Part shown: positions 1 to 57,497 of the stretch, one piece after another
Layout: the number at the start of each line of letters is the position of its first letter
Numbering within the stretch: the stretch's first letter is position 1
From: a virus
Strand: one strand, 5' to 3'
Virus record (IMG/VR): IMGVR_UViG_3300033571_007100
Span: 1-57,497 of that record
DNA: 57,497 bases
The notes under the pieces: model-generated
Told to the model about the DNA's origin: nothing
The model's database searches: none
What the model saw: only the letters and a program-made list of their open reading frames with translations
Program-made: the position numbers and the translations under genes

Positions 1-87
1 AAGGCGAGTTGGCCCCGTACATCATGATGATCGACGAGGAGAACACCGAGGTCGTCGGCCTGTACCGTAACTGGGAAGAGGGCGACG
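1..87. repeat. Terminal overlap copy 1 (circular contig)
   Basis: These 87 bases are identical to 57411-57497. Both copies lie inside the portal reading frame, which continues without a break from the right end of the window into the left end. This is the signature of a circular or circularly permuted assembly rather than a genomic repeat. A short real terminal repeat cannot be excluded from sequence alone. Confidence 0.95.
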
Positions 88-4512: not shown

Positions 4513-5427
4513 ATGGCAGCTCCAATGCGCAGTACCGACTTTCGTAGCATTGTCGAACCTATTCTGAACGAATGCTTCGACGGTATCTACGAACAGCGTA
4601 AAGACGAGTGGTCACGCGTGTTCCGCGAGGAACAAGGCATTCCACGTAACTACCACGAAGAACCCGTCCTGTACGGATTTGGCGCGGCTCCTCAGTTGCC
4701 TGACGGTACTCCTGTCAGCTACCAACAGGGCGGCGTGCTGTTCCTCAAGCGCTATGTTTACAACGTGTATGGCTTGGCCTTCGCGTTGACCAAAGTGCTC
4801 GTGGAAGACGGCGACCACATCCGCATCGGTCAAGTTTACGCCAAGCATTTGGCTCAGTCCCTGATTGAGACCAAAGAGACGCTGGCTGCAAACGTGTTGA
4901 ACCGCGCTTTCAACTCCAGCTATGCTGGCGGCGACGGCGTACAGTTGAACAGCGCTTCGCACCCAATCGTGAACGGCACATTCTCCAACTTGCTGTCGAC
5001 AGCGGCCAACTTGTCCCAGACTTCTCTGGAACAGATGTTGATCCAAATCCGTCAAGCAGTGGACAACAACGGCAAGAAAATCCGCTTGGTCCCACGTCAA
5101 CTCGTCGTGGCTCCCGGCAACGTTTTCCAAGCCGAAGTGTTGCTCAAGTCCGTGCTGCGTGCCGGTACAACCAACAACGATATCAACCCTGTTAAGTCTA
5201 TCGGCCTCTTGGACGAAGGCGCTGCAGTGTTGAGCCGTTTGACCAACGCTAACGCTTGGTGGGTTGAGACCGATGCACCTGAAGGCATGAAGTTGATGAT
5301 GCGTCGCGGCCTCGAGAAGACCATGGAAGGCGATTTCGAAACTGACTCTATGCGCTACAAGGCGACAGAGCGTTACGACATCGGCTGGACTGATCCTCGC
5401 GCGATGTACGGTACACCCGGCGTCTAA
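4513..5427 (+). CDS. Major capsid protein
   Basis: 304 residues, behind the strongest ribosome-binding site in the head block (AAAGGAGGG). The sequence has an N-terminal helical region, a central segment with KRYVYNVYGLAFALTKVLVEDG and a C-terminal part ending in RYDIGWTDPRAMYGTPGV. Length and pattern fit an HK97-fold coat protein. Gene order (portal, scaffold, decoration-like, this gene) supports the call. Scaffold and the GroES-like protein encoded just upstream are its probable assembly partners. A UUCG-loop hairpin follows the stop, as expected for a highly expressed gene. Confidence 0.8.
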   Translation: MAAPMRSTDFRSIVEPILNECFDGIYEQRKDEWSRVFREEQGIPRNYHEEPVLYGFGAAPQLPDGTPVSYQQGGVLFLKRYVYNVYGLAFALTKVLVEDGDHIRIGQVYAKHLAQSLIETKETLAANVLNRAFNSSYAGGDGVQLNSASHPIVNGTFSNLLSTAANLSQTSLEQMLIQIRQAVDNNGKKIRLVPRQLVVAPGNVFQAEVLLKSVLRAGTTNNDINPVKSIGLLDEGAAVLSRLTNANAWWVETDAPEGMKLMMRRGLEKTMEGDFETDSMRYKATERYDIGWTDPRAMYGTPGV

Positions 5428-17473: not shown

Positions 17474-18109
17474 ATGACTGCCGCAGCGGTAATGACATAC
17501 GATAGCTTAAGCGAAAATATTCAGAGCTATCTGGAGCGGACAGACACCGCCACGATCGAGAAGATCCCCCTTTTCATCATGCTCGCCGAGCAGGTGATTG
17601 CGGCCGAAATCAAATTCTTGGGTAACCTGACCGTCAACACTAGCGCGATGGTGCAGGGCGACAACGTGATCGCCAAACCCGCCCGCTGGCACAAGACCGT
17701 ATCGATGAACGTCACGGTGGCCGGGAAACGCTACCCGGTGCTGCTGCGCAAGTACGAATACCTTCGCAACTACTGGCCCGACGCCACGCAGGAAGACGCA
17801 CCACTGTACTACTGCGATTACGATTACACGCACTGGATGGTCGCGCCGACCCCGGCTGATGACTACGCTTTCGAGGTGCTCTACTACGAACGCGTGCAGC
17901 CGCTCAGCTCCGCGAACCAAACGAACTGGTTCACCGAGTATGCGCCTCAGGCCATGCTCTACGGCTCGCTCTTGCAGACCGCGCCATTCCTCAAAAACGA
18001 CGATCGATTGCCCATGTGGCAGCAGCAGTACAGCCAGATTATGGAAGTGCTCAAGGCCGAAGATAAACTCCGTGTGGCTGATCGTCAAGCTATTGCGGTG
18101 GATTCATGA
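17474..18109 (+). CDS. Head-tail adaptor/connector-like protein
   Basis: 211 residues beginning with a helical block (YDSLSENIQSYLERTD, IPLFIMLAEQVIAAEIKFLG). A beta-rich middle (YPVLLRKYEYLRNYWPDA) and C-terminal helices (YAPQAMLYGSLLQTAPFL) follow. This is the general layout of podovirus adaptor proteins that bind below the portal. It starts after its own promoter and overlaps the next gene by four bases. Confidence 0.6.
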   Translation: MTAAAVMTYDSLSENIQSYLERTDTATIEKIPLFIMLAEQVIAAEIKFLGNLTVNTSAMVQGDNVIAKPARWHKTVSMNVTVAGKRYPVLLRKYEYLRNYWPDATQEDAPLYYCDYDYTHWMVAPTPADDYAFEVLYYERVQPLSSANQTNWFTEYAPQAMLYGSLLQTAPFLKNDDRLPMWQQQYSQIMEVLKAEDKLRVADRQAIAVDS

Positions 18110-31441: not shown

Positions 31442-33004
31442 ATGACAAGTCTAGCAGAAGACTTCGCCAATCTGTTCTCCGGTAATCTGCGTTCTTTTGG
31501 TCAGTGGGATCCCAAGAACGGGCAGATGGTGACGGAGAAGGAGGAAGTCACACTCGCGCATTACGAGGCGCACCTGAACGGCACGATGGGTCTAGGGGTC
31601 GTTCCGATCACCGACGGCGGCACAGTGATGTTCGGGTGTATCGACGTGGACAACCACGGCAAAGGGTCGGACGGCTCCGACGTGGACATCGCAGCGCTGG
31701 CCGAGAAGATCGAGCACTACCGGCTCCCGCTGGTGCCGACCCGCTCCAAGTCCGGGGGCGCACACCTGTACCTGTTCGGCAGTGAGTATCTCCCGGCCAA
31801 GCTGGTGATTCGACTGCTCAACAGCTGGCGCGACATGCTCCAGATCAAGAATCACGTGGATATTTTCCCCAAGCAGGATTCGCTGGTGACGTCCGGCGGC
31901 GAGAAGTCGCTCGGTAACTGGATCAACCTGTGCTACTTCAACATCGACGACACCGTCCGCTACGCCGTGGATGAAAAGGGCAACCGGATGTCGTTCGAGC
32001 TGTTCATTTCCTACGCGCAGTCCAAGCGCGTGACAGTGGACGAGCTGCAATCGATGGCGATGCGCGAGCACTTGGAAGCGCCACCCTGTATCCAAAAGAT
32101 GATTCACACCGGGATCGAGTCCGGCTCCCGCAACGACGCAATGTACAACGTGGTCGTGTACCTCAAGCGTGCCCGCCCCGATTCGTTCTTCGACGACGCG
32201 ATGGAGTTGAACAAGACAATGTTCGACAAGCCGCTGGGTCCAGCCGAGGCCAAGAAGGTGATCCGCTCGGCCTCCCGGCGTGACTACCTGTACAAATGTG
32301 GCGACGACCCCTGCAAGTCCCTGTGCGACCGCAAGGTCTGCGTTACCCGCGAGTTCGGTATCTCGATGGACGAGGCGAAAGATCTGGACAATCAGGACTC
32401 GCTGCCGCAGTTCACCGAGCTGATCGAGTACCAGTCGGACCCTCCGCGCTGGGGCATCCACGTTAACGGCATTCTAATCGCGAACATCCCCACGATCATC
32501 CTGCGCGATCCGGCCGCGATGGGTAACCTCATTTTCGAGAAGCTCAAGGTCAACATACCGAAGATCTCGCAGGAGGTGTGGCGTCGCCGCGTGCTGGACC
32601 CACTGGTGCCGACACTGCGAGTGGTGGAAGTGCCGAAAGAGGCGTCCGCATCAGGTATTATCGCGGCCAAGTTCAACGAGTTCATTCAAAAGGCCGATCT
32701 CACTTCGGACGGTATGAACACCGAGGACCGTAAGGCACTGACCCGGAACATCCCAGTGGTGCAGGTGATCAATGGCGTGCGCTGCGTCGTATTCCGTGGC
32801 ACTGCATTCTCCGAGTTCCTAAAGCGCAACAAGGCCGAGGTGATGACGGGAATGGACCTGTGGATCGCGCTACGTCGCGACTGTGGAGCCGACCACGACA
32901 AGCTCCGAATCCCGGGCGGCAAGCCCATTAACGTTTGGTACGCTCCTATAACTGAAGAACATGAGGTGAAAATAGATGATCCCGTCTTCCGCTCCGAATT
33001 CTAA
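31442..33004 (+). CDS. PrimPol-type archaeo-eukaryotic primase (AEP)
   Basis: 520 residues from ATG 31442, well spaced from AGAGGA; an in-frame TTG at 31436 would add two residues. AEP motifs are visible: I, CIDVDN (Asp68, Asp70); II, SKSGGAHLYLF (His about 108); III, VDIFPKQ (about 139-145). A cysteine cluster follows near 285-300 (CGDDPCKSLCDRKVC), probably zinc-binding. The closest named relatives by motif are TOTE-type primases. The enzyme should make primers and perhaps extend DNA. PrimPols are known in Z-genome phages such as S-2L. The gene overlaps the helicase downstream by 29 bases. Confidence 0.75.
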   Translation: MTSLAEDFANLFSGNLRSFGQWDPKNGQMVTEKEEVTLAHYEAHLNGTMGLGVVPITDGGTVMFGCIDVDNHGKGSDGSDVDIAALAEKIEHYRLPLVPTRSKSGGAHLYLFGSEYLPAKLVIRLLNSWRDMLQIKNHVDIFPKQDSLVTSGGEKSLGNWINLCYFNIDDTVRYAVDEKGNRMSFELFISYAQSKRVTVDELQSMAMREHLEAPPCIQKMIHTGIESGSRNDAMYNVVVYLKRARPDSFFDDAMELNKTMFDKPLGPAEAKKVIRSASRRDYLYKCGDDPCKSLCDRKVCVTREFGISMDEAKDLDNQDSLPQFTELIEYQSDPPRWGIHVNGILIANIPTIILRDPAAMGNLIFEKLKVNIPKISQEVWRRRVLDPLVPTLRVVEVPKEASASGIIAAKFNEFIQKADLTSDGMNTEDRKALTRNIPVVQVINGVRCVVFRGTAFSEFLKRNKAEVMTGMDLWIALRRDCGADHDKLRIPGGKPINVWYAPITEEHEVKIDDPVFRSEF

Positions 33005-34715
33005 TGTACAGATTGACTATGATGCAAAAACTAGCCGCTTCGTTATCCACACTCCTGCATGGATGGTGGACAAAGTTCGTGCGATCCCTAATCGTCGTTG
33101 GGATGCTCGTCGCCGCGTTTGGACAGCTCCTGCTCTACGGGCTAACAGCGAGTTCTTGCTTGCTAATTTTGGGCATGACCTTTTTACAGTCGATGCTCGC
33201 GAAGTGGCAGTGCGCACTATCGAGCGCGTACAGCGAAAGGTAGATCCCTTCCCGGTAATGTACCCGTTCAAGACCACCCCGCGTGCCTACCAGCGACAGG
33301 GGCTGGACCACGCGTGGGGCAAGAACACCTTCGCGTTCTACATGGACATGGGTACCGGCAAGACCAAGACGTCGCTCGACCTCGTGTCGGCCTACTACAT
33401 TAATGGGGACGTGGAGCGGCTGATCGTCGTGACCAAGTTCTCGACGCGTCGCAACTGGCAGGACGAGGTGGGGATACACTGCCCGCTGGACGCCGATGTG
33501 ATGATCCTCGACACCACCAAGGCCAAGGCGTTCGACACGTGGAACACCACCACCGACGGTCGCTTGAAGGTGCTGATCGTGGGGACCGAATCGCTGGCCG
33601 CTGGCAACGCGATTAACCTTGCGATGAAGTTCGTGAGCGTCAGCCTCCGGGTCGCGATGATCGTGGACGAGGCACACATGATCAAAACGCACAACGCGGT
33701 GCGATCCAAGAACTGCGTAAAGCTCGGGCGCGAGTGCAAGTACCGAATCGCTATGACCGGCACGCCGGTGGCCAATGGCCCCATGGACGTGTTCATGCAG
33801 TTCGAGTTCCTCGACCCCAACATCATCGGGATCGGTGACTTCTACTCGTTCCGCAACCGGTACGCGATCATGGGCGGGTACGAGAGCAAGCAGGTCGTGG
33901 GGTATCAAAACCTCGCGGAGCTGATCGAGCTGATCTCGCCCTTTATTTACCAAGTACGCAAGTCCGAGGTGCTCACCGAGCTGCCGCCGAAGATCTTCGA
34001 GACCCGCACAGTAGAGATGACAGATGAACAGAAAAGACTATATAAAGACATTGCTAAGCGTGACAAGACGGTATCTGGGGATCGCGGAATCACCGTCAAA
34101 ACCGTACTCGAGCGAATGCTCAGGCTCCAAGAGATCGCCGGTGGTATCATCACCTACGAGCGCAACCCGGATCTGTACAACCCCGAGAAATTCGACCACT
34201 GCCGAATCCCCGGACGCAATCCCAAGGTAGCGGAGCTGCTCGCGATCGCTGAGGAGAACGGGGTGTCCACGATCGTGTGGTGCCGTTACTTGGAAGAGAT
34301 CGCGATGGTCTGCGAGGCACTGCGCGACAAGTACGGGCGCGACGCAGTAGTCGAGATTCACGGTGGCATCTCCGAGGACGATCGGCACCACAACGTGCGC
34401 GAGCTGTTCCAGACCAAAAAGGCGCGATTCCTCGTGGGCAACGCGGCCACCGGTGGCGTGGGTCTCAATATGACCGCTGCAGAGCTGGTCGTATACTTCT
34501 CCAATTCGTTCTCGTTCACCGATCGTGAGCAGTCCGAGGACCGTGCGCACCGCATCGGGCAGACGCGCTCTGTCACCTACATCGACCTGATCGCCGAAGG
34601 CACTGTGGACGAGACTGTGGTGAAAGCGCTGCGCGAGAAGAAAGACGTGTCGGAGTTCGTGCGCACAAGCATCGATAACCGAAACGAGAATAACTTCCTC
34701 GGTGCGCTGGCGTAA
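32976..34715 (+). CDS. SNF2-family helicase with HARP-like N-terminus
   Basis: 579 residues. Residues about 12-60 (RFVIHTPAWMVDKVRAIPNRR, RRVWTAP) resemble the HARP/annealing domain of SMARCAL1-like proteins. The SF2 core follows: Walker A MGTGKTK (125-131), DEAH (231-234), a TGTP motif near residue 265, and motif VI QSEDRAHRIGQ near 525. Such enzymes translocate on duplex DNA and anneal or remodel forks. The start lies within the primase gene, so production is coupled. Its partnership with the PrimPol is suggested by this overlap. No DnaB-type hexameric helicase is present in the genome. Confidence 0.85.
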   Translation: MIPSSAPNSNVQIDYDAKTSRFVIHTPAWMVDKVRAIPNRRWDARRRVWTAPALRANSEFLLANFGHDLFTVDAREVAVRTIERVQRKVDPFPVMYPFKTTPRAYQRQGLDHAWGKNTFAFYMDMGTGKTKTSLDLVSAYYINGDVERLIVVTKFSTRRNWQDEVGIHCPLDADVMILDTTKAKAFDTWNTTTDGRLKVLIVGTESLAAGNAINLAMKFVSVSLRVAMIVDEAHMIKTHNAVRSKNCVKLGRECKYRIAMTGTPVANGPMDVFMQFEFLDPNIIGIGDFYSFRNRYAIMGGYESKQVVGYQNLAELIELISPFIYQVRKSEVLTELPPKIFETRTVEMTDEQKRLYKDIAKRDKTVSGDRGITVKTVLERMLRLQEIAGGIITYERNPDLYNPEKFDHCRIPGRNPKVAELLAIAEENGVSTIVWCRYLEEIAMVCEALRDKYGRDAVVEIHGGISEDDRHHNVRELFQTKKARFLVGNAATGGVGLNMTAAELVVYFSNSFSFTDREQSEDRAHRIGQTRSVTYIDLIAEGTVDETVVKALREKKDVSEFVRTSIDNRNENNFLGALA

Positions 34716-35670: not shown

Positions 35671-36420
35671 ATGGCAAAGAACCAAGTAGCAGTGCAAGAG
35701 CAATCGTTCGAAGTAGTAACTAACGACGTACCTGAATGGCTCAAGACCGGTCAAGCGCGAGGCGCTGAGAATGTCACGACCGATGACATGATCATCCCCC
35801 GCATTGAGCTGATCCAAGCCCTGTCCCCAGCACGTAAAAAGACTGATGCGGCCTACATCGAGGGCGCAGACGAAGGGATGTTGTACAACAACGTCACCCG
35901 CGTACTTTACGGCGAGTCAGTCACAGTGGTGCCGGTGTACTACACCAAGCAATTCCTCGTGTGGAAAGATCGCAAAGCCGGTGGTGGCGGCAGCAACGGT
36001 TTCCGTGGCGCATTCGCCAGTGAGGCCTTGGCACGCGACGCAATCGCGCAGCTCGGCGAAGAGGGTCTGGAGGTCTCCGACACCGCCCAACACTTCGTGC
36101 TGGTGCGTTTTGGCGACGAGTGGCAAGAAGCGGTGATCTCGATGGCCAAGTCCAAGATGAAGGTATCCAAGCGTTGGAATTCCCTGATTCGCATGACCAA
36201 CACCGATTCGTTCGCCCGCGCCTACAAGTTGTCGGCGACGACCGAGACCAACGCTCGCAACGAGTCGTACTTCAACTTCAACATCGCCCCGCTGGGTTTT
36301 GTACAAAAAGAAGTCTACGAGCGTGCCGAGAAGTTGTACGAGACAATCCGCGCCGGTGGCGTGAAGGTCTCTAACGACTACGACGGTGAAGTGGCCGAGG
36401 CGGCTGAAACCGAGTATTGA
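35671..36420 (+). CDS. Putative single-stranded DNA-binding protein (249 aa)
   Basis: The ATG at 35671 is chosen because AGGAG lies nine bases upstream. Residues 65-200 are beta-rich with aromatics (YGESVTVVPVYYTKQFLVWKD, FVLVRFGDEWQEAVISMAKS) and a Gly-rich loop (KAGGGGSNGF). The C-terminal tail is acidic and flexible (NDYDGEVAEAAETEY), as in phage SSBs. The location between primase-helicase and polymerase genes fits, but no diagnostic motif proves it. An unusually structured leader precedes it. Confidence 0.45.
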   Translation: MAKNQVAVQEQSFEVVTNDVPEWLKTGQARGAENVTTDDMIIPRIELIQALSPARKKTDAAYIEGADEGMLYNNVTRVLYGESVTVVPVYYTKQFLVWKDRKAGGGGSNGFRGAFASEALARDAIAQLGEEGLEVSDTAQHFVLVRFGDEWQEAVISMAKSKMKVSKRWNSLIRMTNTDSFARAYKLSATTETNARNESYFNFNIAPLGFVQKEVYERAEKLYETIRAGGVKVSNDYDGEVAEAAETEY

Positions 36421-37431: not shown

Positions 37432-37635
37432 ATGGATCCATGGAAACACCGCTCCGCCAACATGTCCTGCGCCACGTGTATGTGGTTCGTACCCAAGAAG
37501 ACTGAGAGCATGAAAGAAGGCGATCTGTACAAGCTGGGCCGATGTCGCCGTCACGCCCCGACGATGAATGGCTACCCGGTAGTCTACATCAATGACTGGT
37601 GCGGCGATCACAAACTGGACGAGAATAAGGCGTAA
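37432..37635 (+). CDS. Small Cys/His zinc-ribbon protein (67 aa)
   Basis: ATG at 37432, two bases after the preceding stop. CATCMWF, then CRRHAP and DWCGDHK provide four Cys and two His candidates for zinc binding. Such mini-proteins are frequent in phage early operons. The last base overlaps the UvrD-like helicase start. Function unknown. Confidence 0.6.
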   Translation: MDPWKHRSANMSCATCMWFVPKKTESMKEGDLYKLGRCRRHAPTMNGYPVVYINDWCGDHKLDENKA

Positions 37636-39050
37636 TGCAAGTCCATGCACTCTACGGACCCCCGGGCACGGGCAAGACCACGGAGCTGCTGCGTCGAGTG
37701 AAACACGTGCGCGATTCGGGCGTTCAAGCCGAACGAGTCGCTTTCGTCTCCTTCACCCGTGCTGCGGCCTCCGAGGCCCTGTCCAGGCTCGGACTCAAGC
37801 GGTCCGACAACGTGTCCACTATCCACGCGATGGCATTCCGTTCAATGGGAATGCGACAAACGCAGGTAGTGGACAGCATGAAGCTGCGGGAATTCTCCAC
37901 TGTGATGGGGATTCCGATCATTGGCAAGTCCCCCGAGGACGACGAGGAGCGAGCAGATGGAGACTTTTACCTTGACATACTCAACTATGCCCGGAACACC
38001 TTTTCCAACCCGGCGGAGGTTTACGACATCTCGGATCGGCCGGGCAACCGTGCCGAATTCAATGCATTCGTACGGGCATACGCTGACTGGAAATCTACGT
38101 ATGGCTATTACGACTTTACCGACATGCTTGAACGAGCCTCCCGTGGCGCGATTAAGTCAGATGCCGCAGTCGTATTTGTCGACGAAGCTCAAGACCTATC
38201 ACCTCTTCAGTGGAGTGTCATCGAGAAGCTCGTTCGACGTGCTGATGAAGTGCACATCGCAGGGGACGATGATCAGGCGATTTATACGTGGGCCGGTGCA
38301 GATGCGCACGGTATGGCACGATTCACGCAAAAGCATAAGGGTGATAGCCATGTTCTCTCGCTCTCGCATCGACTTCCTGCTGCAGTCCACGCACGATCTC
38401 AAGCCCTCATCCGTCGCGTGGGTCTCCGAGTGGATAAGGAATTCAGTCCCCGAGCGGATTTGGGACTGGTCCGAGTTCACGGGTCGATCAACTCCGTGGA
38501 CATCACGCATGGAGAAGATATACTTCTGCTGGGACGGACGCATTCGGTCCTTCGCGAAGTTGAGCAATCGCTCATCGAGCAACGCATACCGTACACACGC
38601 GAAACGGGTCGCCCCGGAATGTATCAAAATCGATTCGCCGCTGCAATTCGGGCCTTCCGCAAGCTCGGCCGTGGGGAGAAGCTCAGCGATGGGGAACGCA
38701 ATAGTATCCACACGATTGCCACAGGAAGTACTCGAGCAGCTCTTGAGCGAAACGACTATGCAGCGATTACGAAGCTTCCCTTCTGGGTTGCACTTCAAGT
38801 CCCCGGACGGGTCGTTGACTTCTACACCGACGCGGACCTCGACACCCCACCAACAGTACGACTCTCAACTATCCATGCTGCAAAAGGGCATGAAGCTGAT
38901 CGCGTCATACTTCTCACGGACATGACCACCCGGGTGGGGCAGAGCGCGGAGAAAAACCCGGACGACGAACTGCGAGTGTGGTACGTCGGCATGACCCGCT
39001 CCAAGCGAGTGCTAGACATTGTGGAGGGCTACAACGGATACAAATTATGA
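37635..39050 (+). CDS. UvrD/Rep-like SF1A helicase
   Basis: 471 residues, shorter than cellular UvrD (about 720). Motif I GPPGTGKTT (residues 8-16); Ia SFTRAAASEA; motif II VDEAQDLSPLQW (Walker B, near 180); motif III GDDDQAIYTWAGA; motif V/VI in the C-terminal part STIHAAKGHEAD and WYVGMTRSK. A 3'-5' ssDNA translocase for replication or recombination. The reduced size suggests loss of accessory subdomains, as in T4 Dda-type phage helicases. Confidence 0.85.
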   Translation: MQVHALYGPPGTGKTTELLRRVKHVRDSGVQAERVAFVSFTRAAASEALSRLGLKRSDNVSTIHAMAFRSMGMRQTQVVDSMKLREFSTVMGIPIIGKSPEDDEERADGDFYLDILNYARNTFSNPAEVYDISDRPGNRAEFNAFVRAYADWKSTYGYYDFTDMLERASRGAIKSDAAVVFVDEAQDLSPLQWSVIEKLVRRADEVHIAGDDDQAIYTWAGADAHGMARFTQKHKGDSHVLSLSHRLPAAVHARSQALIRRVGLRVDKEFSPRADLGLVRVHGSINSVDITHGEDILLLGRTHSVLREVEQSLIEQRIPYTRETGRPGMYQNRFAAAIRAFRKLGRGEKLSDGERNSIHTIATGSTRAALERNDYAAITKLPFWVALQVPGRVVDFYTDADLDTPPTVRLSTIHAAKGHEADRVILLTDMTTRVGQSAEKNPDDELRVWYVGMTRSKRVLDIVEGYNGYKL

Positions 39051-39112: not shown

Positions 39113-39388
39113 ATGGCAACATACGACAACACCAACTCCGGGATGATGGCGCGGAACGAGAACCGCAAGACCGACAAGCACCCCGAGTTCTCCGGCTCGA
39201 TCAACGTCGAGGGAACGGATTACTGGCTTTCCGCGTGGGTGAACGAGGGTCGCCCCGGTGGTAAGATGGAAGGCAAAAAATACTTCTCCATCAAGATTAA
39301 TCGCAAAGACGGGTACAGCACGACCCCCGGTCGATCGTCGAACCCGAAGGACTACGACGACACTTACTCCGACGACATCCCTTTCTAA
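39113..39388 (+). CDS. Small SSB-like protein with DDIPF tail
   Basis: 91 residues. The body contains HPEFSGSINVEGTDYWLSAWVN and KYFSIKINRKDG, which look like OB-fold strands. The C-terminus is DDTYSDDIPF, matching the acidic DDIPF tip by which bacterial SSB recruits replication proteins. This is the only protein in the window with a canonical SSB tip. It lies one base before the DNA polymerase start, suggesting a functional pair. The ssDNA-binding role is inferred. Confidence 0.55.
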   Translation: MATYDNTNSGMMARNENRKTDKHPEFSGSINVEGTDYWLSAWVNEGRPGGKMEGKKYFSIKINRKDGYSTTPGRSSNPKDYDDTYSDDIPF

Positions 39389-39389
39389 G

Positions 39390-41228
39390 ATGTCGACCTT
39401 CCCACGCATTGATTCGGTCCCCTATATGGTGATCGACACCGAGACCACGGGGCTGAAGTGGTGGTCGGACAAGCTGTTCGGCATTTCCATCGCACTCCCC
39501 GAGGGTCCCGGCTACTACTGGGATGTCCGCACCGACCCGAAAGTCATCGACTGGCTCTGCAGCCTGATCGACGAGGACCGGGTAGGGATGTGGATCGGCC
39601 ACAATCTCAAGTTCGACTACCACTTTCTGCGCGAAGCCGGGTTCGCCATGCCCACCGACCGGATCGACTGCACGATGACCCGTGCCGCCCTGATCTCGGA
39701 GCACGAACCCACCTACGCGCTGGACTTCCTCGGGCGCAAATACGCCGGAGCGAAGAAGGACGAGGAGATCTACGAGGAGATGGCCAAGCTGTTCGGTGGC
39801 CGAGCAACGCGCAACGCGCAGATGCCCAACATCTCCCGCGCCCCCGTGCAAATGGTGGCCAAGTACGCGATTCAGGACGCGATCGTCACCCGGGCGCTCT
39901 ACGAGTGGCAGTGCGGGGAGATGGAGCGGCAGAATCTGCACCAAGTTCACCAGCTCGAGCGCGATCTGTTCCCCGTGATCATCGACATGGAAGAGCAGGG
40001 AGTGCGAGTGGACGTGGAACAGGCCGAGAAGGCCATCCGTGGCCTCACCGTTCGCATCGACGACACCCAGCGGGACCTTAATAGGATGGCGGGCTTCGAG
40101 GTCAACCCGAACCCTTCCGGAAGCATCGCGCAGCTGTTCGAACCCAAGATCGGGGAAGACAACGAGTGGTACCTGAACGACGGCACGAAAGCCGACAAGA
40201 CCGACGGGGGCAAGGCGTCCATCAACGCCGACTGCTTGCGTCGCATGAAGCACCCCGCCGCGAAGATGATCCTGGACTTGCGCAAAATGCTCAAGACCCG
40301 CGACACCTTCCTGAGCGGACACATCTTGGGGCACGAGCATGATGGCATCATTCATTGCAATTACAACCAGACTAAGAATGACGCCGAAGCTGGTACGGGT
40401 ACCGGACGGCTATCGATTACAAATCCCGCTTTGCAGCAGATTCCAAGTCGAGACCATGCCATTAAGTCACTTGTTCGTCCAATATTCAAGGCCGATGTGG
40501 GCGCACAGTGGTTGGGTCTGGATTGGTCCCAATTTGAATTCCGAGTGGCTAACCATTACGGTCAGGTCCCCGCGATTTTGGAGGCTTACCGACAAAATCC
40601 GCAGCTGGACTTCCACCAACTCGTGAGCGACATGACCGGGATCCCACGAAACGCGCAGTACGCCGGTGGCCCGTCTTCCAAGGCGATCAACCTCGGTCTC
40701 GCGTTCAACATGGGGTCCGGGCGGCTGGCGCAGGAGTGCGGATTGCCGTACACTGAGGAGGTGGGGCCGGGCGGCAACGTCTACCTCAAGGCCGGACCGG
40801 AGGCAATGGAGCTGTTCGACAAGTACCACACGGCCAACCCGGGGATGCGGAACACACAAATCAAGGCCTCCTCGATCGCGAAGGAGCGGGGATATGTACA
40901 TTCTATCATGGGACGGCGTATCCACTTCCCCGGCGGCCAATTCGTGCACAAAGCCTCGGGGCTGATCTACCAAGCCACCAGTGCGGACTGCATGAAGGTC
41001 AAGCTCATCGAGCTGCACAAGTACCTCAAAGCGAAAGAGTGCGGACGGCTTCTGCTGACCGTGCACGACGAGGTCGGTATCTCGCTCGATAACGACGCTA
41101 AAGCGGAGGCCGACGAGGTCGCCCGTATATACACAACATTCGACGGTGTCGAGTGTCCGATTAAACTCCGTGTCCCTATTACCTGCGATTGGGGCATTGG
41201 TGAAGACTGGTTCGCAGCAAAAGGATGA
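39390..41228 (+). CDS. dpoZ: Family A DNA polymerase with 3'-5' exonuclease (DpoZ-like)
   Basis: 612 residues from ATG 39390. Exonuclease motifs: DTET (16-19), NLKFD (72-76) and YAIQDA (159-164). Polymerase motifs: A, LDWSQFEFR (Asp378); B, SSKAINLGLAFN (Lys431); C, VHDE (558-561). There is no 5'-3' exonuclease domain. Next to purZ, mazZ and datZ, it is expected to be the DpoZ enzyme that copies with dZTP. In motif B the usual Arg four residues before Lys is Gly427, and the usual Tyr eight residues after is Phe439; Leu435 replaces the common Phe. Family assignment is firm; Z preference is inferred. Confidence 0.85.
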   Translation: MSTFPRIDSVPYMVIDTETTGLKWWSDKLFGISIALPEGPGYYWDVRTDPKVIDWLCSLIDEDRVGMWIGHNLKFDYHFLREAGFAMPTDRIDCTMTRAALISEHEPTYALDFLGRKYAGAKKDEEIYEEMAKLFGGRATRNAQMPNISRAPVQMVAKYAIQDAIVTRALYEWQCGEMERQNLHQVHQLERDLFPVIIDMEEQGVRVDVEQAEKAIRGLTVRIDDTQRDLNRMAGFEVNPNPSGSIAQLFEPKIGEDNEWYLNDGTKADKTDGGKASINADCLRRMKHPAAKMILDLRKMLKTRDTFLSGHILGHEHDGIIHCNYNQTKNDAEAGTGTGRLSITNPALQQIPSRDHAIKSLVRPIFKADVGAQWLGLDWSQFEFRVANHYGQVPAILEAYRQNPQLDFHQLVSDMTGIPRNAQYAGGPSSKAINLGLAFNMGSGRLAQECGLPYTEEVGPGGNVYLKAGPEAMELFDKYHTANPGMRNTQIKASSIAKERGYVHSIMGRRIHFPGGQFVHKASGLIYQATSADCMKVKLIELHKYLKAKECGRLLLTVHDEVGISLDNDAKAEADEVARIYTTFDGVECPIKLRVPITCDWGIGEDWFAAKG

Positions 41229-41234
41229 GTAACC

Positions 41235-42347
41235 ATGGATAAAGTAGACGTAATCGTAGACCTGCAATACGGCAGCACCGGTAAGGGCCTCCTCGTGGGC
41301 TACCTCGCCGAGAACGGCCCGTACGACGCAGTGGTCACCGGGTGGGCACCGAATGCGGGCCACACCTACATCGCCAAGGATGGCCGCAAGTTCATCCACA
41401 CGCACCTCGCCAACGGCATCGTCGGACCCGCCGTGCGCAAAGTGTTCCTCGGCCCCGGCTCGCTGATTAACCCCGCGCAGCTGCTGGAGGAGATCGAGCA
41501 GTGCCGCGACATCATCGAGAAGAAGGACATCCAAATCTACATTCACCCGCACGCCGCAATCGTGACCGAGCGTCACATCGAGGAAGAGGCCGGGCCAATG
41601 ACCAAGATCGGTTCGACCAAAAAAGGCGTGGGTGCAGCAATGATCCAGCGCATTCGCCGCAACCCGGACGACCAAAACGTGGCAGCGGGATGTAAAGAGC
41701 TGAAAGACTACGTCTGCACAGTGGATGAATACCGCAAAGAGCTGAAAGACTCCGAGTACGTGCTGGTCGAGGGGGCGCAGGGCTACGGGCTGTCGATGTA
41801 CCACGGATTCTATCCATTCACCACTTCCCGCGACGTGTCGATTTGGCAGATCCTCGCCGACTCCGGTATCCAAGCCGCTGATGTGCTGGACAAGTACAAG
41901 ATCACCAAGATTCGAGCGCTCGGCACGTGCCGTACCTACCCGATCCGCGTGGCCAATCGATTCGACGACCAAGGCACACAGGTGGGCTACTCCGGCCCCT
42001 GCTACGACGACCAAGAGGAGATCACGTTCGAGTCGATCGGGCAAAAGACGGAGCTGACTACAGTGACCAAGCTGCCACGCCGAATCTTCACATTCTCGGG
42101 TCAGCAGATCAAAGAGGCGATCGACCACAACGGCGTGTACGAGGTGTTCCTCAACTTCGTGAACTACGTGCGCACCGAGGTCGAGCTGATCGACATTATT
42201 CAGCGTATTGAGCGCAAAGACACACAAGTGCGCTGGATCGGGACTGGCCCGACGTACCAAGATGTGCACGAGATCCAAGGGGACCGTGCTCAGCGTATGC
42301 AAAAAATCGTAACTATCTGGAAGGAAATCAAAAATGCTGCAAGTTGA
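41235..42347 (+). CDS. purZ: PurZ, 2-aminodeoxyadenylosuccinate synthetase
   Basis: 370 residues, PurA fold. It joins dGMP and aspartate, using ATP or dATP energy, to make the precursor of dZMP; host PurB completes the step. The P-loop reads QYGSTGKG (11-18), where PurA has GDEGKG: the catalytic Asp is Ser14, the substitution reported for PurZ. NAGHT keeps the catalytic His, and STKKGVG replaces the IMP-loop region. The C-terminus extends past the usual phage length with VRWIGTGPTYQDV. Position after the polymerase and before mazZ supports the assignment. Overlaps mazZ by 14 bases. Confidence 0.9.
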   Translation: MDKVDVIVDLQYGSTGKGLLVGYLAENGPYDAVVTGWAPNAGHTYIAKDGRKFIHTHLANGIVGPAVRKVFLGPGSLINPAQLLEEIEQCRDIIEKKDIQIYIHPHAAIVTERHIEEEAGPMTKIGSTKKGVGAAMIQRIRRNPDDQNVAAGCKELKDYVCTVDEYRKELKDSEYVLVEGAQGYGLSMYHGFYPFTTSRDVSIWQILADSGIQAADVLDKYKITKIRALGTCRTYPIRVANRFDDQGTQVGYSGPCYDDQEEITFESIGQKTELTTVTKLPRRIFTFSGQQIKEAIDHNGVYEVFLNFVNYVRTEVELIDIIQRIERKDTQVRWIGTGPTYQDVHEIQGDRAQRMQKIVTIWKEIKNAAS

Positions 42348-42837
42348 ATCAACCGTACACACCGATGAAATCAATGAACTCCCGTGGTCAACCGACCCAA
42401 TCAATGGCGCTCAGATCGTCGACGCGAAAGGCGCTACCATCGCGTCTTTCGAAGTACGTCATCATCTGCGAGGAATTCTCAGTAATTGTGACAAGAACGC
42501 GGATCTTGCAGTACGTGCAGTCAATGCGTACAAAAAGCGAGGCGGTGCCGATATCCGCCAGCTCCAAGATCGTATTACTCGCTGGGCAGACACGAATTTT
42601 CCGAACCGTACGACGGCCGATATCCTCCTTAAGCTCTACGAAGAAGTGGGGGAGTACGCCCGTAACCCGAAAGCTGCGCTCGAAATGGGCGACATCATGA
42701 TCTTGTTACTCGACGTCGCGCACAAGAACGGTATCGACGTGCACAAGGCGATCGAGGACAAGATGGACATCAACGAAAAACGCGGCTGGAAGGTCGATGA
42801 GAACACGAGGATCATGCGCCATGTCGACACGAAATGA
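42334..42837 (+). CDS. mazZ: MazZ, MazG-like (d)GTP pyrophosphohydrolase
   Basis: 167 residues. The MazG metal site is clear: E103-E104-x2-E107 (YEEVGEYA) and E117-x2-D120 (LEMGDI), followed by KMDINEKRGW (143-152). In the Z pathway MazZ converts dGTP to dGMP, supplying PurZ. Residues 1-60 form an N-terminal extension not seen in the smallest MazG proteins. It is translated from inside the end of purZ and ends within the start of the next small gene, tying it to the same operon. Confidence 0.85.
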   Translation: MLQVESTVHTDEINELPWSTDPINGAQIVDAKGATIASFEVRHHLRGILSNCDKNADLAVRAVNAYKKRGGADIRQLQDRITRWADTNFPNRTTADILLKLYEEVGEYARNPKAALEMGDIMILLLDVAHKNGIDVHKAIEDKMDINEKRGWKVDENTRIMRHVDTK

Positions 42838-43036
42838 TGCATTCAACGGCTGGTACGACACATTCTTCGGCAGCGTGCTGGGGGCCGAGGACACCGAGAA
42901 CCGCGAAGCCGTGCGCAAGATCTGGAATTCGATTCTCGAGCACGTGGCCAAAGAGTACGAGTTCCAGCTCTTCGACGAGATGACCGGGGATCAATTCGCG
43001 GACCAAATCCGCAGACTACAGGCAGTAAAACAATGA
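42821..43036 (+). CDS. Hypothetical protein in Z cluster (71 aa)
   Basis: ATG at 42821 lies inside the mazZ end. A helical protein with two halves: NAFNGWYDTFFGSVLGAED and a KEYEFQLFDEMTGDQFADQI segment. No motif recognised. Its presence between mazZ and datZ suggests a role in the pathway or simply co-regulation. Confidence 0.55.
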   Translation: MSTRNDAFNGWYDTFFGSVLGAEDTENREAVRKIWNSILEHVAKEYEFQLFDEMTGDQFADQIRRLQAVKQ

Positions 43037-43239
43037 ACGACTTTTCGCAGAAAATGATAAACAGCTTAGACTTGACGACCGAGCATGGGTTCGCCGAAGC
43101 ATTATTGATCGCCATTGCAAGCTTGAAGAACAAAGATGGACTTCTAGTTAATGTGAAGTTGGGCGAGGACATCGGAGAGCATATGAGCTATGTTGAACAG
43201 ATCGCACGTATGATGCTCAACAAGGGGAATAACAAATGA
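43033..43239 (+). CDS. Hypothetical protein in Z cluster (68 aa)
   Basis: Four-base overlap with both neighbours. Mostly helical, containing LTTEHGFAEALLIAIASLKN and GEHMSYVEQIARMMLN. Codon use looks less GC-rich than nearby genes. No recognised family. Confidence 0.55.
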   Translation: MNDFSQKMINSLDLTTEHGFAEALLIAIASLKNKDGLLVNVKLGEDIGEHMSYVEQIARMMLNKGNNK

Positions 43240-43799
43240 GCTTAACTACAGCTGAACAATTAAGAGCGTGCCACGTCCGTCGCTGGCACATCGTGCAGAC
43301 CTCCCGCGAGCAGACGCTGGCGGAGCACTCATTCGCCGTGGCCGTGCTGGCCGGGTCGCTCGCTGCTGCGATGCGCTACTCCGGACTGATGCACCACGGG
43401 CTACAGCTCAAGCTCTTGCAGCACGCGCTGTCGCACGACCTGATCGAGGTACGTACGGGCGATATGCCCACACCGTTCAAGCGCTTCCTCGAAGAGGCCG
43501 GTGGCAAAGGCATCGTGGAGAAGGCCGAAGACCTCGTGGATCGTGACCACTCCGGTGCGATGCGCACGGTGGCCGGGACCGAGATCGAGACGATCGTGAA
43601 GCTCGCGGACCTAATCGAGGCGATCTACTTCTTGCAGGACAACGGAGTCGGGGCACACGCCAAGACCGTGCTCGATGGGCTGCGCTTCAATCTCACCAAT
43701 GCGGTGAACGATGCAGTGAAAGAGTGGCCAGCACTGGATGTGCGCGAAGGCGTGCGCAAGGTCTGTAACGACATCGGCATCATGGGGGGGTGGTTATGA
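43236..43799 (+). CDS. datZ: DatZ, HD-domain dATP triphosphohydrolase
   Basis: 187 residues. The HD phosphohydrolase site is visible as His31 (LAEHSF), His67-Asp68 (LSHDLIE) and Asp125 (KLADLIEA), with helix spacing as in DatZ of S-2L. DatZ removes dATP, so that polymerase meets dZTP instead of dATP. Length is close to known DatZ proteins (about 175-190). Starts by ATGA overlap with the 68-residue gene; its own TGA overlaps the NrdR-like gene start. YfbR-type nucleotidase is the alternative, made less likely by the purZ/mazZ neighbours. Confidence 0.85.
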   Translation: MSLTTAEQLRACHVRRWHIVQTSREQTLAEHSFAVAVLAGSLAAAMRYSGLMHHGLQLKLLQHALSHDLIEVRTGDMPTPFKRFLEEAGGKGIVEKAEDLVDRDHSGAMRTVAGTEIETIVKLADLIEAIYFLQDNGVGAHAKTVLDGLRFNLTNAVNDAVKEWPALDVREGVRKVCNDIGIMGGWL

Positions 43800-43996
43800 A
43801 ATGCGTGAAATGCGGGTACGCCACGCGAGTGACGACTACGTACCAAAATGCGGACCAGACCACCAAGCGCCGCCGCGAGTGCATCGACTGCGGGTTCCGA
43901 TTCACGACCCGGGAGCACCCACAGGTGGACACGGTGGAGGTGTTCGATGTGGAAGAGACCGCAAAAGCGATCGAAGAGCGTCGGTCCGAGGATTGA
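43796..43996 (+). CDS. NrdR-like zinc-ribbon protein (66 aa)
   Basis: MKCVKCG at the start and RRRECIDCGFRFTTRE at 28-43 copy the zinc ribbon of NrdR, the repressor of ribonucleotide reductase genes. The ATP-cone that senses dNTPs in NrdR is missing, so only the DNA-binding part remains. The ATG at 43796 overlaps the DatZ stop by four bases. A role in changing host dNTP synthesis during Z-DNA production would make sense, but is inferred. Confidence 0.65.
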   Translation: MKCVKCGYATRVTTTYQNADQTTKRRRECIDCGFRFTTREHPQVDTVEVFDVEETAKAIEERRSED

Positions 43997-44053: not shown

Positions 44054-44887
44054 ATGGCAACACCGATTTTCTACCATCCGGACCAAGCGGTCGAACACGA
44101 CTTCATCTCGACGAACAAGATCCCCGAGTTCGTCCGGCAGTCAGGCCGCTTCCCGGTTCAACCCCCGGACCTTGCGGCTGCAGCCCTGTACGTAGCGCAC
44201 GATCGCGGTTACGTGGCCGGGGTGATGGACGGCACGACACCGAACGGATTCGGCACTACCGATCCCGCGCTGGCGCGTTACGCGCTCGCCTCGGTCGCCT
44301 CCTTCACCGGAGCCGTGGAACACGTGCTGCAGGGTCGCGATCCAGTGGCGTGCTCCGCGAGTCAAGGCTTCCACCATGCACATTGGTCCGACGGGTTCGG
44401 GTACTGCACGTTCAACGGCCTGATGGTCGCGGCGGCGCAGCAGCTGCAAAAAGGCGCGGTCGATCGAGTGCTGATCATCGATGGCGATGGCCACTACGGG
44501 GACGGCACGGCCGACATCATCGAGCTGCTGGGCTACGAGGACCGCGTGGTGAACGTGGGCAGCGAGACCATGCACGGACTGGTGGACGAGTTCAACCGCT
44601 CGCAATGGTACGAGTACTTCCGGGGCTTGATCGAGCAGCACAGGCCGGGTATAATTATGTACCAAGCCGGTGCCGACGCGTGGAAAAAAGATCCCTACGA
44701 GGTCGGATACCTGTCGATACTGGGGCTAATGAAACGGGATCGGGCACTGTTCCGAGCAGCAGAAGAAGCGGGGATCCCACTGGCTTGGAATCTTGCAGGG
44801 GGCTACAGCGAGCCGATGCAAACAGTGATCGAGTTACACATGAACACGCTGACAGCCAGCGACGAGGTATATTATGGCGGACCCTAA
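44054..44887 (+). CDS. HDAC-superfamily deacetylase
   Basis: 277 residues from ATG 44054. All catalytic positions of the arginase/deacetylase superfamily are present: QGFHHAHW (His107-His108), IDGDGHYGDGT (Asp145, His147), QAGADAW (Asp208) and LAGGYSEP (Tyr251). The metal site and Tyr suggest an active zinc amidohydrolase removing acyl groups from lysine or a small polyamine. It has its own strong promoter. Phage members of this family are known but their substrates are mostly unclear; acetylated host proteins or acetylpolyamines are candidates. It ends inside the start of the next gene. Confidence 0.8.
   Translation: MATPIFYHPDQAVEHDFISTNKIPEFVRQSGRFPVQPPDLAAAALYVAHDRGYVAGVMDGTTPNGFGTTDPALARYALASVASFTGAVEHVLQGRDPVACSASQGFHHAHWSDGFGYCTFNGLMVAAAQQLQKGAVDRVLIIDGDGHYGDGTADIIELLGYEDRVVNVGSETMHGLVDEFNRSQWYEYFRGLIEQHRPGIIMYQAGADAWKKDPYEVGYLSILGLMKRDRALFRAAEEAGIPLAWNLAGGYSEPMQTVIELHMNTLTASDEVYYGGP
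44627..44655 (+). promoter_or_regulatory. Internal promoter candidate in HDAC-like gene
   Basis: TTGATC (44627-44632), 17 bases, TATAAT (44650-44655). It would increase transcription of the 44874 gene. The match is good but intragenic. Confidence 0.45.
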
Positions 44888-53143: not shown

Positions 53144-53803
53144 ATGGCCTTAATTGACAAACCCATCACCTTGGACCAGATTGGTGCCGAAACTCTCGCC
53201 GAGTTTGAGCGTCGTGCTATGGTGCCAGTGACCGTCCTCCTCGACGCAATCCGCCGTGATCGCGTACGTCATCCACCCAGTGATTCGGCGCACATGTCGC
53301 ACTCACTAGCGTGCAACGACCCGACGCTCGAAGCGACCGGGCAGTTGAAAGCGAATGAGGAGACCAAAGCCTACAAAATGCTGGTGATCATCGCCGAATT
53401 CCGGGATGGTCCCCCCGAGGCGAAATTCTCGCTGCGCCACGCCTACACCACGGCGGGCGTCTACCGTGACACAATGCAAGACTGGCGCTCCGTGCACAAG
53501 CTGTTCGATAGCATCATGACCTCGATCCAAGAGGAGATGGTTGACACGATGCGTGCCGAGGCCTACCGTCGTGCCGTGGTGGGCGTGGAAGAACCCGTGT
53601 TTTACCAAGGCATCAGGACCGACACCGTGCGCAAATTCAGTGATGGACTGCTGCAGTTCACGCTGATGGGGTACGACGCGAAATTCCGTGCAAAAGATGT
53701 CAACATGAATGTGTCGGGCCAGCTCGACTCGAACGTCAATATCGAGGGTCTCCGTGATCGCCTTGCCCAACGCCTCCAGCAAAAATCAAAAGCGGAAGAG
53801 TAA
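53144..53803 (+). CDS. terS: Terminase small subunit
   Basis: 219 residues. ATG at 53144 lacks a clear ribosome-binding site. The central region is helical (FSLRHAYTTAGVYRDTMQDW), with a helix-turn-helix-like unit for DNA recognition. A conserved block MRAEAYRRAVVGVEEPVFYQ (about 145-165) is one I know from phage small terminases. The C-terminal region (NVNIEGLRDRLAQRLQQK) is helical, suitable for contact with the large subunit. It overlaps terL by 50 bases. Confidence 0.7.
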   Translation: MALIDKPITLDQIGAETLAEFERRAMVPVTVLLDAIRRDRVRHPPSDSAHMSHSLACNDPTLEATGQLKANEETKAYKMLVIIAEFRDGPPEAKFSLRHAYTTAGVYRDTMQDWRSVHKLFDSIMTSIQEEMVDTMRAEAYRRAVVGVEEPVFYQGIRTDTVRKFSDGLLQFTLMGYDAKFRAKDVNMNVSGQLDSNVNIEGLRDRLAQRLQQKSKAEE

Positions 53804-55193
53804 GCGCGGTCTAGGACTGGACCCGCACAACTTCAACGAGTTTGTGGCCGAGCTGTCGGATCGCGAGGCCGTCGAACTTTTCTACGATTGGCCCACATGG
53901 GCACGGCCCAACCAGCTGCCGCCAGTGGACGAGCAGTTCTGGACCACGTGGCTCATCCTCGCTGGCCGGGGCTGGGGCAAAACCCGGTGCGGTGCCGAAT
54001 TCGTGCGTTACCACGTCGAAAACAAGCTGGCCGGTCGCATCGCGCTGATCGCCGAGGATGCGGGTGACGCCCGCGACGTTATGATCGAAGGTGAGTCCGG
54101 AATCCTGGCCATCTCGCACCCGGCGTGCAAGCCGGTATTTGTGCCGTCCAAGCGGCGACTGGAGTGGCCCAATGGAGCGATCGCAACCATCTACTCCGAC
54201 AACGACCCTGAGACTCTGCGCGGCCCACAGCATGACCTTGCTTGGGTTGACGAACTTGCCAAATTCCGTAACGCTGAAGACATGTGGTCCAACCTTATGT
54301 TCGGCTTGCGCTTGGGTCAGCGACCCCGGGTGTGCGTCACGACTACGCCAAAGCCCATTCCGATTGTACGTCGGCTTATTGCGGACGAACGAGTCTTCGT
54401 GACCACCGGCACGACGCACGAGAATTTCAACAACCTCGCGCCGTCCTTCCGCGACGAGATCGTGTCGCAGTACGAGGGCACACGCATCGGGCGGCAGGAG
54501 CTTTACGCCGAGGTGATCGACCCCGAGGACTACGGCATCGTCAAACGTGGCTGGTTCCGCCTGTGGGATGCGAGCAAGCCCTTCCCCGACTTCATGTACG
54601 TGGTCCAGTCCTACGACTGCGCGTACACCGACAAGACCAGCAACGACCCCACGGCGTGCTCCGTGTGGGGCATCTTCCGTCCCAACGACGACGCGCCCCT
54701 GTGCGTCATGCTCATCGATGCGTGGGAGGACTACCTCACGTACCCGGACCTGCGCCCCAAGATCGTCGAGGAGTACGGCAGCATCTACGGCGAGCCGGGC
54801 AAAAAAGTCGACATGGTGCTGGTCGAGGACAAAGCCTCGGGCATCTCGATCATTCAGGATCTGCAGCGTGCCGGTATTCCGGTCCGCGCCTACAACCCAG
54901 GCCGTGCCGACAAAACCCAGCGCTTGCACCTCGTCGCCAACATCATCGCCCACGGCCGTGTCTACATTCCCGAGTCCGTGGTGCACAAAGGCCAGCCACG
55001 CGATTGGGCCGAACCGCTGGTCAGCCAAGTCTGCTCCTTCCCCGAGGCCGAACACGACGACCTGACCGACACGCTCTCCCAAGCCCTGCGCCTGCTCAAG
55101 GACATGGGCTTCCTCAACATTGACCCCGTTGCCCCGGACACCGAGTACGTGGACGACGAATACCGCCAGCGAGGTAACCCTTATGCCCAGTAA
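53754..55193 (+). CDS. terL: Terminase large subunit
   Basis: GTG at 53754 is preferred because GAGGG lies five bases upstream; an in-frame ATG at 53709 is the alternative. ATPase: Walker A AGRGWGKT (about 70-77) and Walker B AWVDELA (about 163-169). Nuclease: Asp in SYDCAYTDKTSNDPTA, VEDKASG and EAEHDDLTDTLSQA. The enzyme cuts and pumps DNA into the procapsid through the portal. Length (479 aa) is normal for podovirus terminases. The downstream gene overlaps its end by 11 bases. Confidence 0.95.
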   Translation: MIALPNASSKNQKRKSKRGLGLDPHNFNEFVAELSDREAVELFYDWPTWARPNQLPPVDEQFWTTWLILAGRGWGKTRCGAEFVRYHVENKLAGRIALIAEDAGDARDVMIEGESGILAISHPACKPVFVPSKRRLEWPNGAIATIYSDNDPETLRGPQHDLAWVDELAKFRNAEDMWSNLMFGLRLGQRPRVCVTTTPKPIPIVRRLIADERVFVTTGTTHENFNNLAPSFRDEIVSQYEGTRIGRQELYAEVIDPEDYGIVKRGWFRLWDASKPFPDFMYVVQSYDCAYTDKTSNDPTACSVWGIFRPNDDAPLCVMLIDAWEDYLTYPDLRPKIVEEYGSIYGEPGKKVDMVLVEDKASGISIIQDLQRAGIPVRAYNPGRADKTQRLHLVANIIAHGRVYIPESVVHKGQPRDWAEPLVSQVCSFPEAEHDDLTDTLSQALRLLKDMGFLNIDPVAPDTEYVDDEYRQRGNPYAQ

Positions 55194-56479: not shown

Positions 56480-57497
56480 ATGGCAACAGAATTCCCGATC
56501 CCGCAAATGGAGGCAGCACCCGGTCCCGAGGACGAGGAGGGTCTGATTGTCGATCTGGACGACGAATTTGCTGAGGTCGAGGAACAGCCCGATGGCTCCG
56601 CCATTGTGCGCATGGACGAGTTCAAAGGCCCCGCTGAAGACCAGGATTTCTACGCCAACATGGCCGAAGAGCTGCCCGAGTGGGAGCTGTCGAAGGTAGC
56701 ACTCAAGTACATCGAGCTGATCGAGAACGACCGCGAAGCACGCAAGGAGCGCGACAAGCAATATGAAGAGGGCTTGAAGCGTACCGGCATGGGCAACGAC
56801 GCCCCCGGCGGTGCGATGTTCCAAGGCGCGTCACGCGTCGTGCACCCAGTGATGGCCGAGGCCTGCATCGATTTCGAATCGCGTGCCATTAAGGAGCTGT
56901 TCCCACCGGACGGCCCTGTGCGCACCAACATCGTGGGCGACGTCGACGACGAAGAGGAGAAGCGGGCCGAGCGCAAACGCGACTTCATGAATTGGCAGCT
57001 CACCGAGCAGATCGAGGAATTCCGCGACGAGCAAGAGCAAATGCTGACGCAGCTGCCGCTGGGCGGCTCGCAGTTTCTGAAGCTTTGGTACGACGAGCGC
57101 AAGAAGCGCCCCTGTGCCGAGTTCGTGTCGATCGACAACATCATTCTGCCATTCTCCGCAGCCAACTTCTACACTGCGCAGCGCGTGACCGAGGTGCAGG
57201 ACATCACGCAGCAGGAATTCGAATCGCGCATGAATTCGGGCCTGTACCGTGACATTTCGATCGTGCGGGCTTCGATGGAGCCTACGCCCACCGGACCCGA
57301 GAAGGCGAACGACAAGATCGAGGGCAAGCAGTGGCAGGAAAACATCGACGGGACGCGCCGCGTCTACGTGGTGTACACATTCATGGAGTGGGAAGACGAT
57401 TCGCACTCAAAAGGCGAGTTGGCCCCGTACATCATGATGATCGACGAGGAGAACACCGAGGTCGTCGGCCTGTACCGTAACTGGGAAGAGGGCGACG
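56480..57497 (+). CDS. Portal protein, N-terminal part (continues at 1)
   Basis: Starts at ATG 56480 after AAAAGGATAACTACCC and stays open to the end of the window, then joins base 1 after removing the 87-base overlap. The N-terminal 65 residues are acidic (EDEEGLIVDLDDEFAEVEE). A conserved-looking region follows: GASRVVHPVMAEACIDFESR and LPLGGSQFLKLWYDERKKRP. That segment is typical of large podovirus portal proteins. See the entry at 1-1577 for the other half. Confidence 0.8.
   Translation, partial: MATEFPIPQMEAAPGPEDEEGLIVDLDDEFAEVEEQPDGSAIVRMDEFKGPAEDQDFYANMAEELPEWELSKVALKYIELIENDREARKERDKQYEEGLKRTGMGNDAPGGAMFQGASRVVHPVMAEACIDFESRAIKELFPPDGPVRTNIVGDVDDEEEKRAERKRDFMNWQLTEQIEEFRDEQEQMLTQLPLGGSQFLKLWYDERKKRPCAEFVSIDNIILPFSAANFYTAQRVTEVQDITQQEFESRMNSGLYRDISIVRASMEPTPTGPEKANDKIEGKQWQENIDGTRRVYVVYTFMEWEDDSHSKGELAPYIMMIDEENTEVVGLYRNWEEGD
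57411..57497. repeat. Terminal overlap copy 2 (circular contig)
   Basis: Identical to bases 1-87; see that entry. The duplicated bases should be counted once. Confidence 0.95.

Follow-up and report, generated by a model that had tools for sequence, protein, structure and literature searches.

Does the 57,497-bp virus record IMGVR_UViG_3300033571_007100 from IMG/VR, which was analysed at its full length and is called the window here, encode a working system for replacing adenine with 2-aminoadenine (Z) in its own DNA? An original prediction, made from the letters and open reading frames of this stretch, had placed a complete set of DpoZ, PurZ, MazZ and DatZ genes at 39390-43799, and profile, structure, residue and tree evidence all bore this out. 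We put the probability at roughly 0.93 that the window carries a functional Z-DNA replication module of the PurZ/DpoZ class (phiVC8/SH-Ab 15497), with enzyme activities and Z in the DNA predicted from sequence. Matched Z and non-Z phages, a zinc-ribbon gene coupled to datZ and a palindrome signature are, in our view, more valuable results than cluster membership itself.

The Z-DNA gene cluster

The limits of the cluster are exact, from the ATG of DpoZ at 39390 to the stop of DatZ at 43799. The order is dpoZ, purZ, mazZ, two small genes and datZ, all on the + strand, and neighbouring genes overlap or are separated by short gaps:

39390..41228, + strand: DpoZ, family A DNA polymerase of phiVC8/SH-Ab type with 3'-5' exonuclease (NF038380, 779.5 bits; structure 7PBK, 3e-133)
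41235..42347, + strand: PurZ, 2-amino-adenylosuccinate synthetase, predicted to act on dGMP and aspartate (NF038379, 333.7 bits; Ser14)
42334..42837, + strand: MazZ (MazZ-1/DUF550 type), 167 amino acids (PF04447, 33.7 bits, cut-off 23; S-2L MazZ 7ODY, 3e-12)
42821..43036, + strand: gene of 71 amino acids without family match, detected by tblastn in about two thirds of relatives
43033..43239, + strand: gene of 68 amino acids without family match, in the window only (no relative at 1e-4)
43236..43799, + strand: DatZ, HD-domain dATP triphosphohydrolase (phrog_7076, 2e-32; 6ZPA, 8e-19)

The NCBIfam cut-offs are 500 bits for the DpoZ model and 300 bits for the PurZ model. The closest solved structures were phiVC8 DpoZ (7PBK), phiVC8 and S-2L PurZ, S-2L MazZ (7ODY) and S-2L DatZ (6ZPA), the last with an E-value of 8e-19 versus 3e-8 for YfbR. 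Taken together, these profile and structure matches to four predicted Z enzymes are far beyond chance, and the gene set (DatZ, MazZ and a phiVC8-like DpoZ) is assigned by its matches to the PurZ type, not the PurZ0 type. The window MazZ has an N-terminal extension of about 70 amino acids (42334-42540) that S-2L MazZ lacks.

Residues were compared with published structures (PMC8065100, PMC8342488, PMC8599892) in the window and 57 relatives. Ser14 of PurZ, which replaces the catalytic Asp13 of E. coli PurA, was present in the window and in 57/57 relatives, and the window protein also conserves G126, S127, R142, R238, V239, T275 and R282. DatZ matches the metal and phosphate residues of S-2L (R16, W17, I19, H31, H67, D68, E71, P80, K82, K122 and D125), with I19 equivalent to S-2L I22, the residue excluding the 2-amino group. 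MazZ has the MazG-HisE metal residues E103, E104, E107, E117 and D120, the guanine residues I123 and D127 (S-2L I56/D60) and R150. In DpoZ the exonuclease residues D16/E18/D76, the HD dyad and L435, F439 and G524 (phiVC8 L455/F459/G548) are present, along with the three extra loops of phiVC8 type, insertion 3 being shorter than in phiVC8. Key residues were near-invariant across relatives; exceptions include DatZ K116, which is Glu in 9/57. Separately, PurZ in 14 relatives (L033-L039, L045, L047, L050, L051, L057, L060 and L061, as deduced from the group with 42-44% PurZ identity) has a PurA-like Trp at the S-2L Y21 position and Asp at the Q308 position, and keeps Ser at the Asp13 position.

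The window PurZ grouped with phage PurZ, away from PurA at a starred branch of 100, and the window DatZ grouped with phage DatZ. Because YfbR is represented in the DatZ tree by one long-branched outgroup sequence, the DatZ assignment also leans on the better match to 6ZPA than to YfbR. Since both proteins fall with phage Z enzymes, neither of the groupings that the original prediction had named as counting against it (PurZ with cellular PurA, DatZ with YfbR-type nucleotidases) was found. In the DpoZ tree, the window and its relatives formed one clade (starred, 100) next to those of SH-Ab and phiVC8.

Two ideas about the history of PurZ were dropped. That PurZ had been replaced in subclade B (L034, L035, L038, L051, L057 and L061) was suggested by the first tree and by 42-44% PurZ identity beside 73-74% DpoZ identity; once the longest branches were removed, the window-clade PurZ formed one side of a starred branch of 99. 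The other idea was an archaeal or cellular origin. Among the 7 loci found in a scan of genome contigs, five lie on contigs of 12-47 kb, another on a contig of 1 Mb, and the last is an ordinary PurA; no host was assigned from them.

In the proposed pathway, MazZ would convert dGTP to dGMP, PurZ would join dGMP to aspartate with host enzymes completing dZTP, and DatZ would destroy dATP. DpoZ would prefer dZTP over dATP, so that the genome is proposed to carry Z instead of A. The expected gain would be resistance to host restriction at A/T-containing sites.

One capsid protein in Z and non-Z genomes

The record is circular or complete, because its two ends share 87 bp and the portal reading frame continues through the join (836 codons joined, no internal stop); the true genome is thus about 57.4 kb. 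The virion-related features are:

1..87 (= 57411-57497), no strand: terminal direct overlap, 87 bp
56480..57497, + strand: portal, first part (phrog_1216), continuing at 88-1577 across the join
88..1577, + strand: portal, second part, of the join-spanning reading frame
4513..5427, + strand: major capsid protein (PF25209), shared with non-Z sisters
17474..18109, + strand: SU10-type adaptor, podovirus neck (PF24175, 1.5e-22)
53754..55193, + strand: terminase large subunit, TerL (PF03237/PF17289), tracking the Z arm (72-88% identity to Z relatives, 44-54% to non-Z)

The SU10-type adaptor and the portal match suggest a podovirus-like virion with a short-tail connector, in line with the lack of any tape-measure or tail-tube match among the window proteins scanned. 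No tRNA genes were found in the window.

The scan of IMG/VR with the capsid protein kept 80 contigs, each at least 91% identical in it, and phages with this protein (identity mostly 91-96%) occur in Z and non-Z forms. PurZ was present in 5/20 long records with this capsid protein, a family A polymerase in exactly those five, and an NrdR-like zinc ribbon (described below) exceeded its cut-off in the same five; in one non-Z record a match fell below it. In the gene-by-gene comparison with non-Z records, the genes in 24-28922 were shared to differing extents, and from 28919 to about 53 kb there was essentially nothing in common apart from one 32% MazG-like match. As some of the records do not span a whole genome, absence from any single sister is weak; agreement across 15 is evidence. 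The Manatee Spring phage MW202545 (ctpbd312) shares the virion arm with the window (major capsid protein 87%, portal about 60%, TerL 48%) but lacks PurZ, the family A polymerase and the NrdR zinc ribbon. Another non-Z sister, G009, instead encodes a primosomal protein, together with a DnaB-like helicase and a C5 DNA methylase.

Trees of TerL, portal, scaffold and the cpn10-like protein each set Z apart from non-Z at one starred branch; four other virion genes (g189, g357, g410 and nozzle) require a minimum of 2-3 exchanges at starred branches. This pattern fits en-bloc replacement of an early arm of about 25 kb, with surface and tail genes, among them decoration genes, having been swapped repeatedly between Z and non-Z phages. 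The Z module belongs to this arm, in whose place the non-Z forms have a different early arm lacking a family A polymerase, and the capsid protein is nearly the same in both. As far as we found, Z and non-Z forms that share a capsid protein and differ by such an arm are new. Possible adaptation of TerL, portal and scaffold to the packaging of Z-DNA would account for their staying with the Z arm; physical linkage to that arm is a simpler alternative. The idea that the non-Z sisters methylate their DNA in place of using Z was also considered and not retained: N6/N4 methylases were found in 0/33 records and C5 methylases in 3 non-Z and 0 Z records, too few to conclude.

Z-DNA phages are known from limited isolates, which form at least seven gene-sharing groups (PMC12884076). 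Since nearly the same capsid protein occurs with Z and non-Z genomes, virion and DNA chemistry appear separable, and this widespread uncultured lineage offers natural matched pairs for studying the costs and gains of Z, packaging-motor adaptation and restriction as a selective force.

A palindrome signature

Counts of 6-bp palindromes were compared with fourth-order expectations in 17 Z genomes and 14 non-Z sisters. A/T-containing palindromes stood at 0.82 of expectation in Z versus 0.62 in non-Z genomes (p = 8e-6), and GC-only palindromes were avoided in both (0.36 versus 0.43, p = 0.62). By number of A/T letters, the Z and non-Z values were 0.78 and 0.52 (two), 0.85 and 0.67 (four) and 1.06 and 0.72 (six), with non-palindrome controls near 1. 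The pattern recurred within virion genes alone; 51/56 A/T palindromes were commoner in Z genomes, against 3/8 GC-only ones. SH-Ab, phiVC8 and PMBT28 show the pattern, and other Z lineages, when pooled, gave 0.85 and 0.52 in the same test.

Several observations weigh against a Z-DNA reading of the window. S-2L does not show the palindrome pattern and L083, a canonical non-Z phage, shows a similar one. The log-ratio version of the contrast between A/T and GC-only palindromes was not significant (p = 0.24; additive version, p = 0.009), owing to the wide variation among non-Z genomes. The palindrome signal is not phylogenetically independent, as the Z members cluster in the packaging-gene trees, and the genomes were compared regardless of host. 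As for the polymerase, DpoZ is no proof by itself, since phiJL001 has a phiVC8-like enzyme and lacks Z genes (PMC8599892). The signature is further limited by 4-bp palindromes, which are relaxed in Z genomes with or without A/T, and we dropped GC-only palindromes as a strict internal control, given the log-ratio result and the Z-like pattern of L083. Relaxed avoidance of A/T palindromes is an indirect and not a diagnostic hint of Z substitution, which fits Z protecting A/T-containing sites. The contrast is new, as far as we found, and as a hint of base substitution obtained from sequence alone it is applicable to further lineages.

L083 (Vibrio phage VPs20, Chaseviridae) has a DatZ-like HD protein beside a DNA ligase at 8001-8528, and no PurZ is annotated in the stretch examined. 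In the Z genomes of the lineage (the window, G001, G003, G005 and others), GAGCTC occurs at 0.06 of expectation despite its A/T content and CCGCGG at 0.01, a scarcity which may point to host enzymes still cutting Z-DNA.

Alternative explanations

Substitution could be partial, with dZTP raised and dATP lowered but A and Z mixed in virion DNA through a leaky polymerase or host supply. DpoZ selectivity is quantitative, in that dATP is accepted once its concentration is higher (PMC8599892); in E. coli expressing the S-2L triad, a significant part of the adenine was converted but not all of it (PMC8342488); and DatZ K116 is Glu in the nine relatives mentioned above. Against these points stand a complete set with all specificity residues and a largely relaxed avoidance of A/T palindromes, and we consider partial substitution improbable. 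Simple scavenging, in which PurZ-, MazG- and YfbR-like enzymes do no more than adjust the host's purine pools and adenine stays ordinary, would suit the fold families shared with cellular PurA, MazG and YfbR and the example of phiJL001, but is very improbable given Ser for Asp13 in PurZ, Ile at the I22 position of DatZ, the occurrence of purZ strictly together with the family A polymerase in capsid sisters, and the palindrome signature.

Replication neighbourhood and known Z systems

The Z-DNA cluster is preceded by replication genes:

31442..33004, + strand: PrimPol-like primase, AEP and PriCT (PHROG primase, 1.6e-121; PF22548/PF08708, AEP-TOTE; 41% to SH-Ab 15497 and PMBT28)
32976..34715, + strand: SNF2-family helicase (PF00176, 2e-31; about 40% to SH-Ab 15497, PMBT28 and phiVC8 helicases)
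35671..36420, + strand: Pam3 gp34-like replication-module protein (PF23977, 9e-66; 39-45% to phiVC8, SH-Ab and PMBT28)
37635..39050, + strand: UvrD/PcrA-type helicase (PF00580, 1e-27; 38-40% to SH-Ab and PMBT28)
39113..39388, + strand: single-strand DNA-binding protein, SSB (PHROG SSB, 6e-15), directly before dpoZ

The PrimPol that had been proposed upstream of the cluster was recovered by both PHROG and Pfam. The proposed HARP-like SNF2 helicase held as an SNF2 protein but not as a HARP one, as no HARP domain appeared in the Pfam scan. The suggestion that this context made a new version of the system fell away: Acinetobacter phage SH-Ab 15497 and Salmonella phage PMBT28 have homologues in the same order (PrimPol, SNF2, 114 amino acids, 145 amino acids, gp34-like, UvrD, DpoZ, PurZ, MazZ, DatZ), so the SNF2/PrimPol context is part of a known module. 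PurZ and DpoZ of these two phages are 44-48% identical to those of the window. They differ from it in a longer MazZ fusion of 290-385 amino acids (the 167-residue window MazZ has a different N-terminal extension), in an SSB gene between dpoZ and purZ, and in that the datZ-coupled NrdR-like zinc ribbon was not found there. SH-Ab 15497 also has a siphovirus-type virion with an annotated tape measure.

Vibrio phage phiVC8 and Alteromonas phage ZP6 (podoviruses of Enhodamvirus and Mareflavirus) share DpoZ, PurZ and DatZ with the window, but their MazZ is of another type, MazZ-2 (PMC8342488), and their genomes are 38-40 kb; no structural-protein match between the window and phiVC8 was found at 1e-4. 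Cyanophage S-2L has the same purZ-mazZ(-1)-datZ order, with enzymes 42/38/33% identical, but uses PrimPol and has no DpoZ (PMC8065100). PurZ0 phages (Wayne, Ghobes) also arrive at Z-DNA, but with DutZ/DmtZ/DUF5664 and another DpoZ class (PMC12884076), unlike the DatZ/MazZ set of the window.

Relatives and a zinc-ribbon gene coupled to datZ

Scans of IMG/VR found 61 DpoZ loci at 54-87% identity and 534 confirmed PurZ stretches, which makes phages with PurZ common members of uncultured viromes. Every window-like contig that was long enough kept the dpoZ-purZ-mazZ-datZ order. The mazZ-datZ interval is an insertion hot spot: at one extreme among the relatives the genes overlap by 4 bp, at the other they lie about 2.2 kb apart. 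Two genes follow datZ:

43796..43996, + strand: NrdR-like zinc-ribbon mini-protein, 66 amino acids (PF22811, 8e-9), overlapping datZ by 4 bp
44054..44887, + strand: histone-deacetylase/acetylpolyamine-amidohydrolase-like enzyme (PF00850, 1.5e-30), just after the zinc-ribbon gene

The mini-protein has only the zinc-ribbon part of NrdR (PF22811 1-42) and no ATP-cone, so it is NrdR-like and not a full NrdR. Its overlap with datZ was exactly 4 bp in 54/57 relatives having both genes; of the other three, L041 has an overlap of 14 bp, which may come from the choice of start site, and L055 and L058 have gaps of 202 and 187 bp, respectively. The L011 and L021 contigs stop short of the position. Among 50,697 phage records there were three weak matches only, none from a named Z phage, and the other PurZ contigs retrieved gave no match at 1e-3 outside the window clade. 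The datZ-overlapping zinc-ribbon gene is new, as far as we found. Two Z relatives have a second NrdR-like zinc ribbon, G005 near 950-1105 and G006 near 26295-26450.

NrdR requires dATP and ATP for DNA binding and dimerises via its zinc ribbons (PMC12051234), which led us to an antirepressor idea. The mini-protein would be translated together with DatZ and pair with host NrdR while DatZ destroys dATP; ribonucleotide reductase genes would be kept on, supplying dGMP for Z synthesis. That the zinc ribbon is such an extra component of the Z module, and TerL, portal and scaffold are adapted to Z-DNA packaging, is a tentative proposal which we think possible but doubtful. The deacetylase-like gene is present in most relatives and subclade A, is absent from subclade B (L033-L039, L051, L057, L061) and L058, and was matched by only 6 records of the phage collection.

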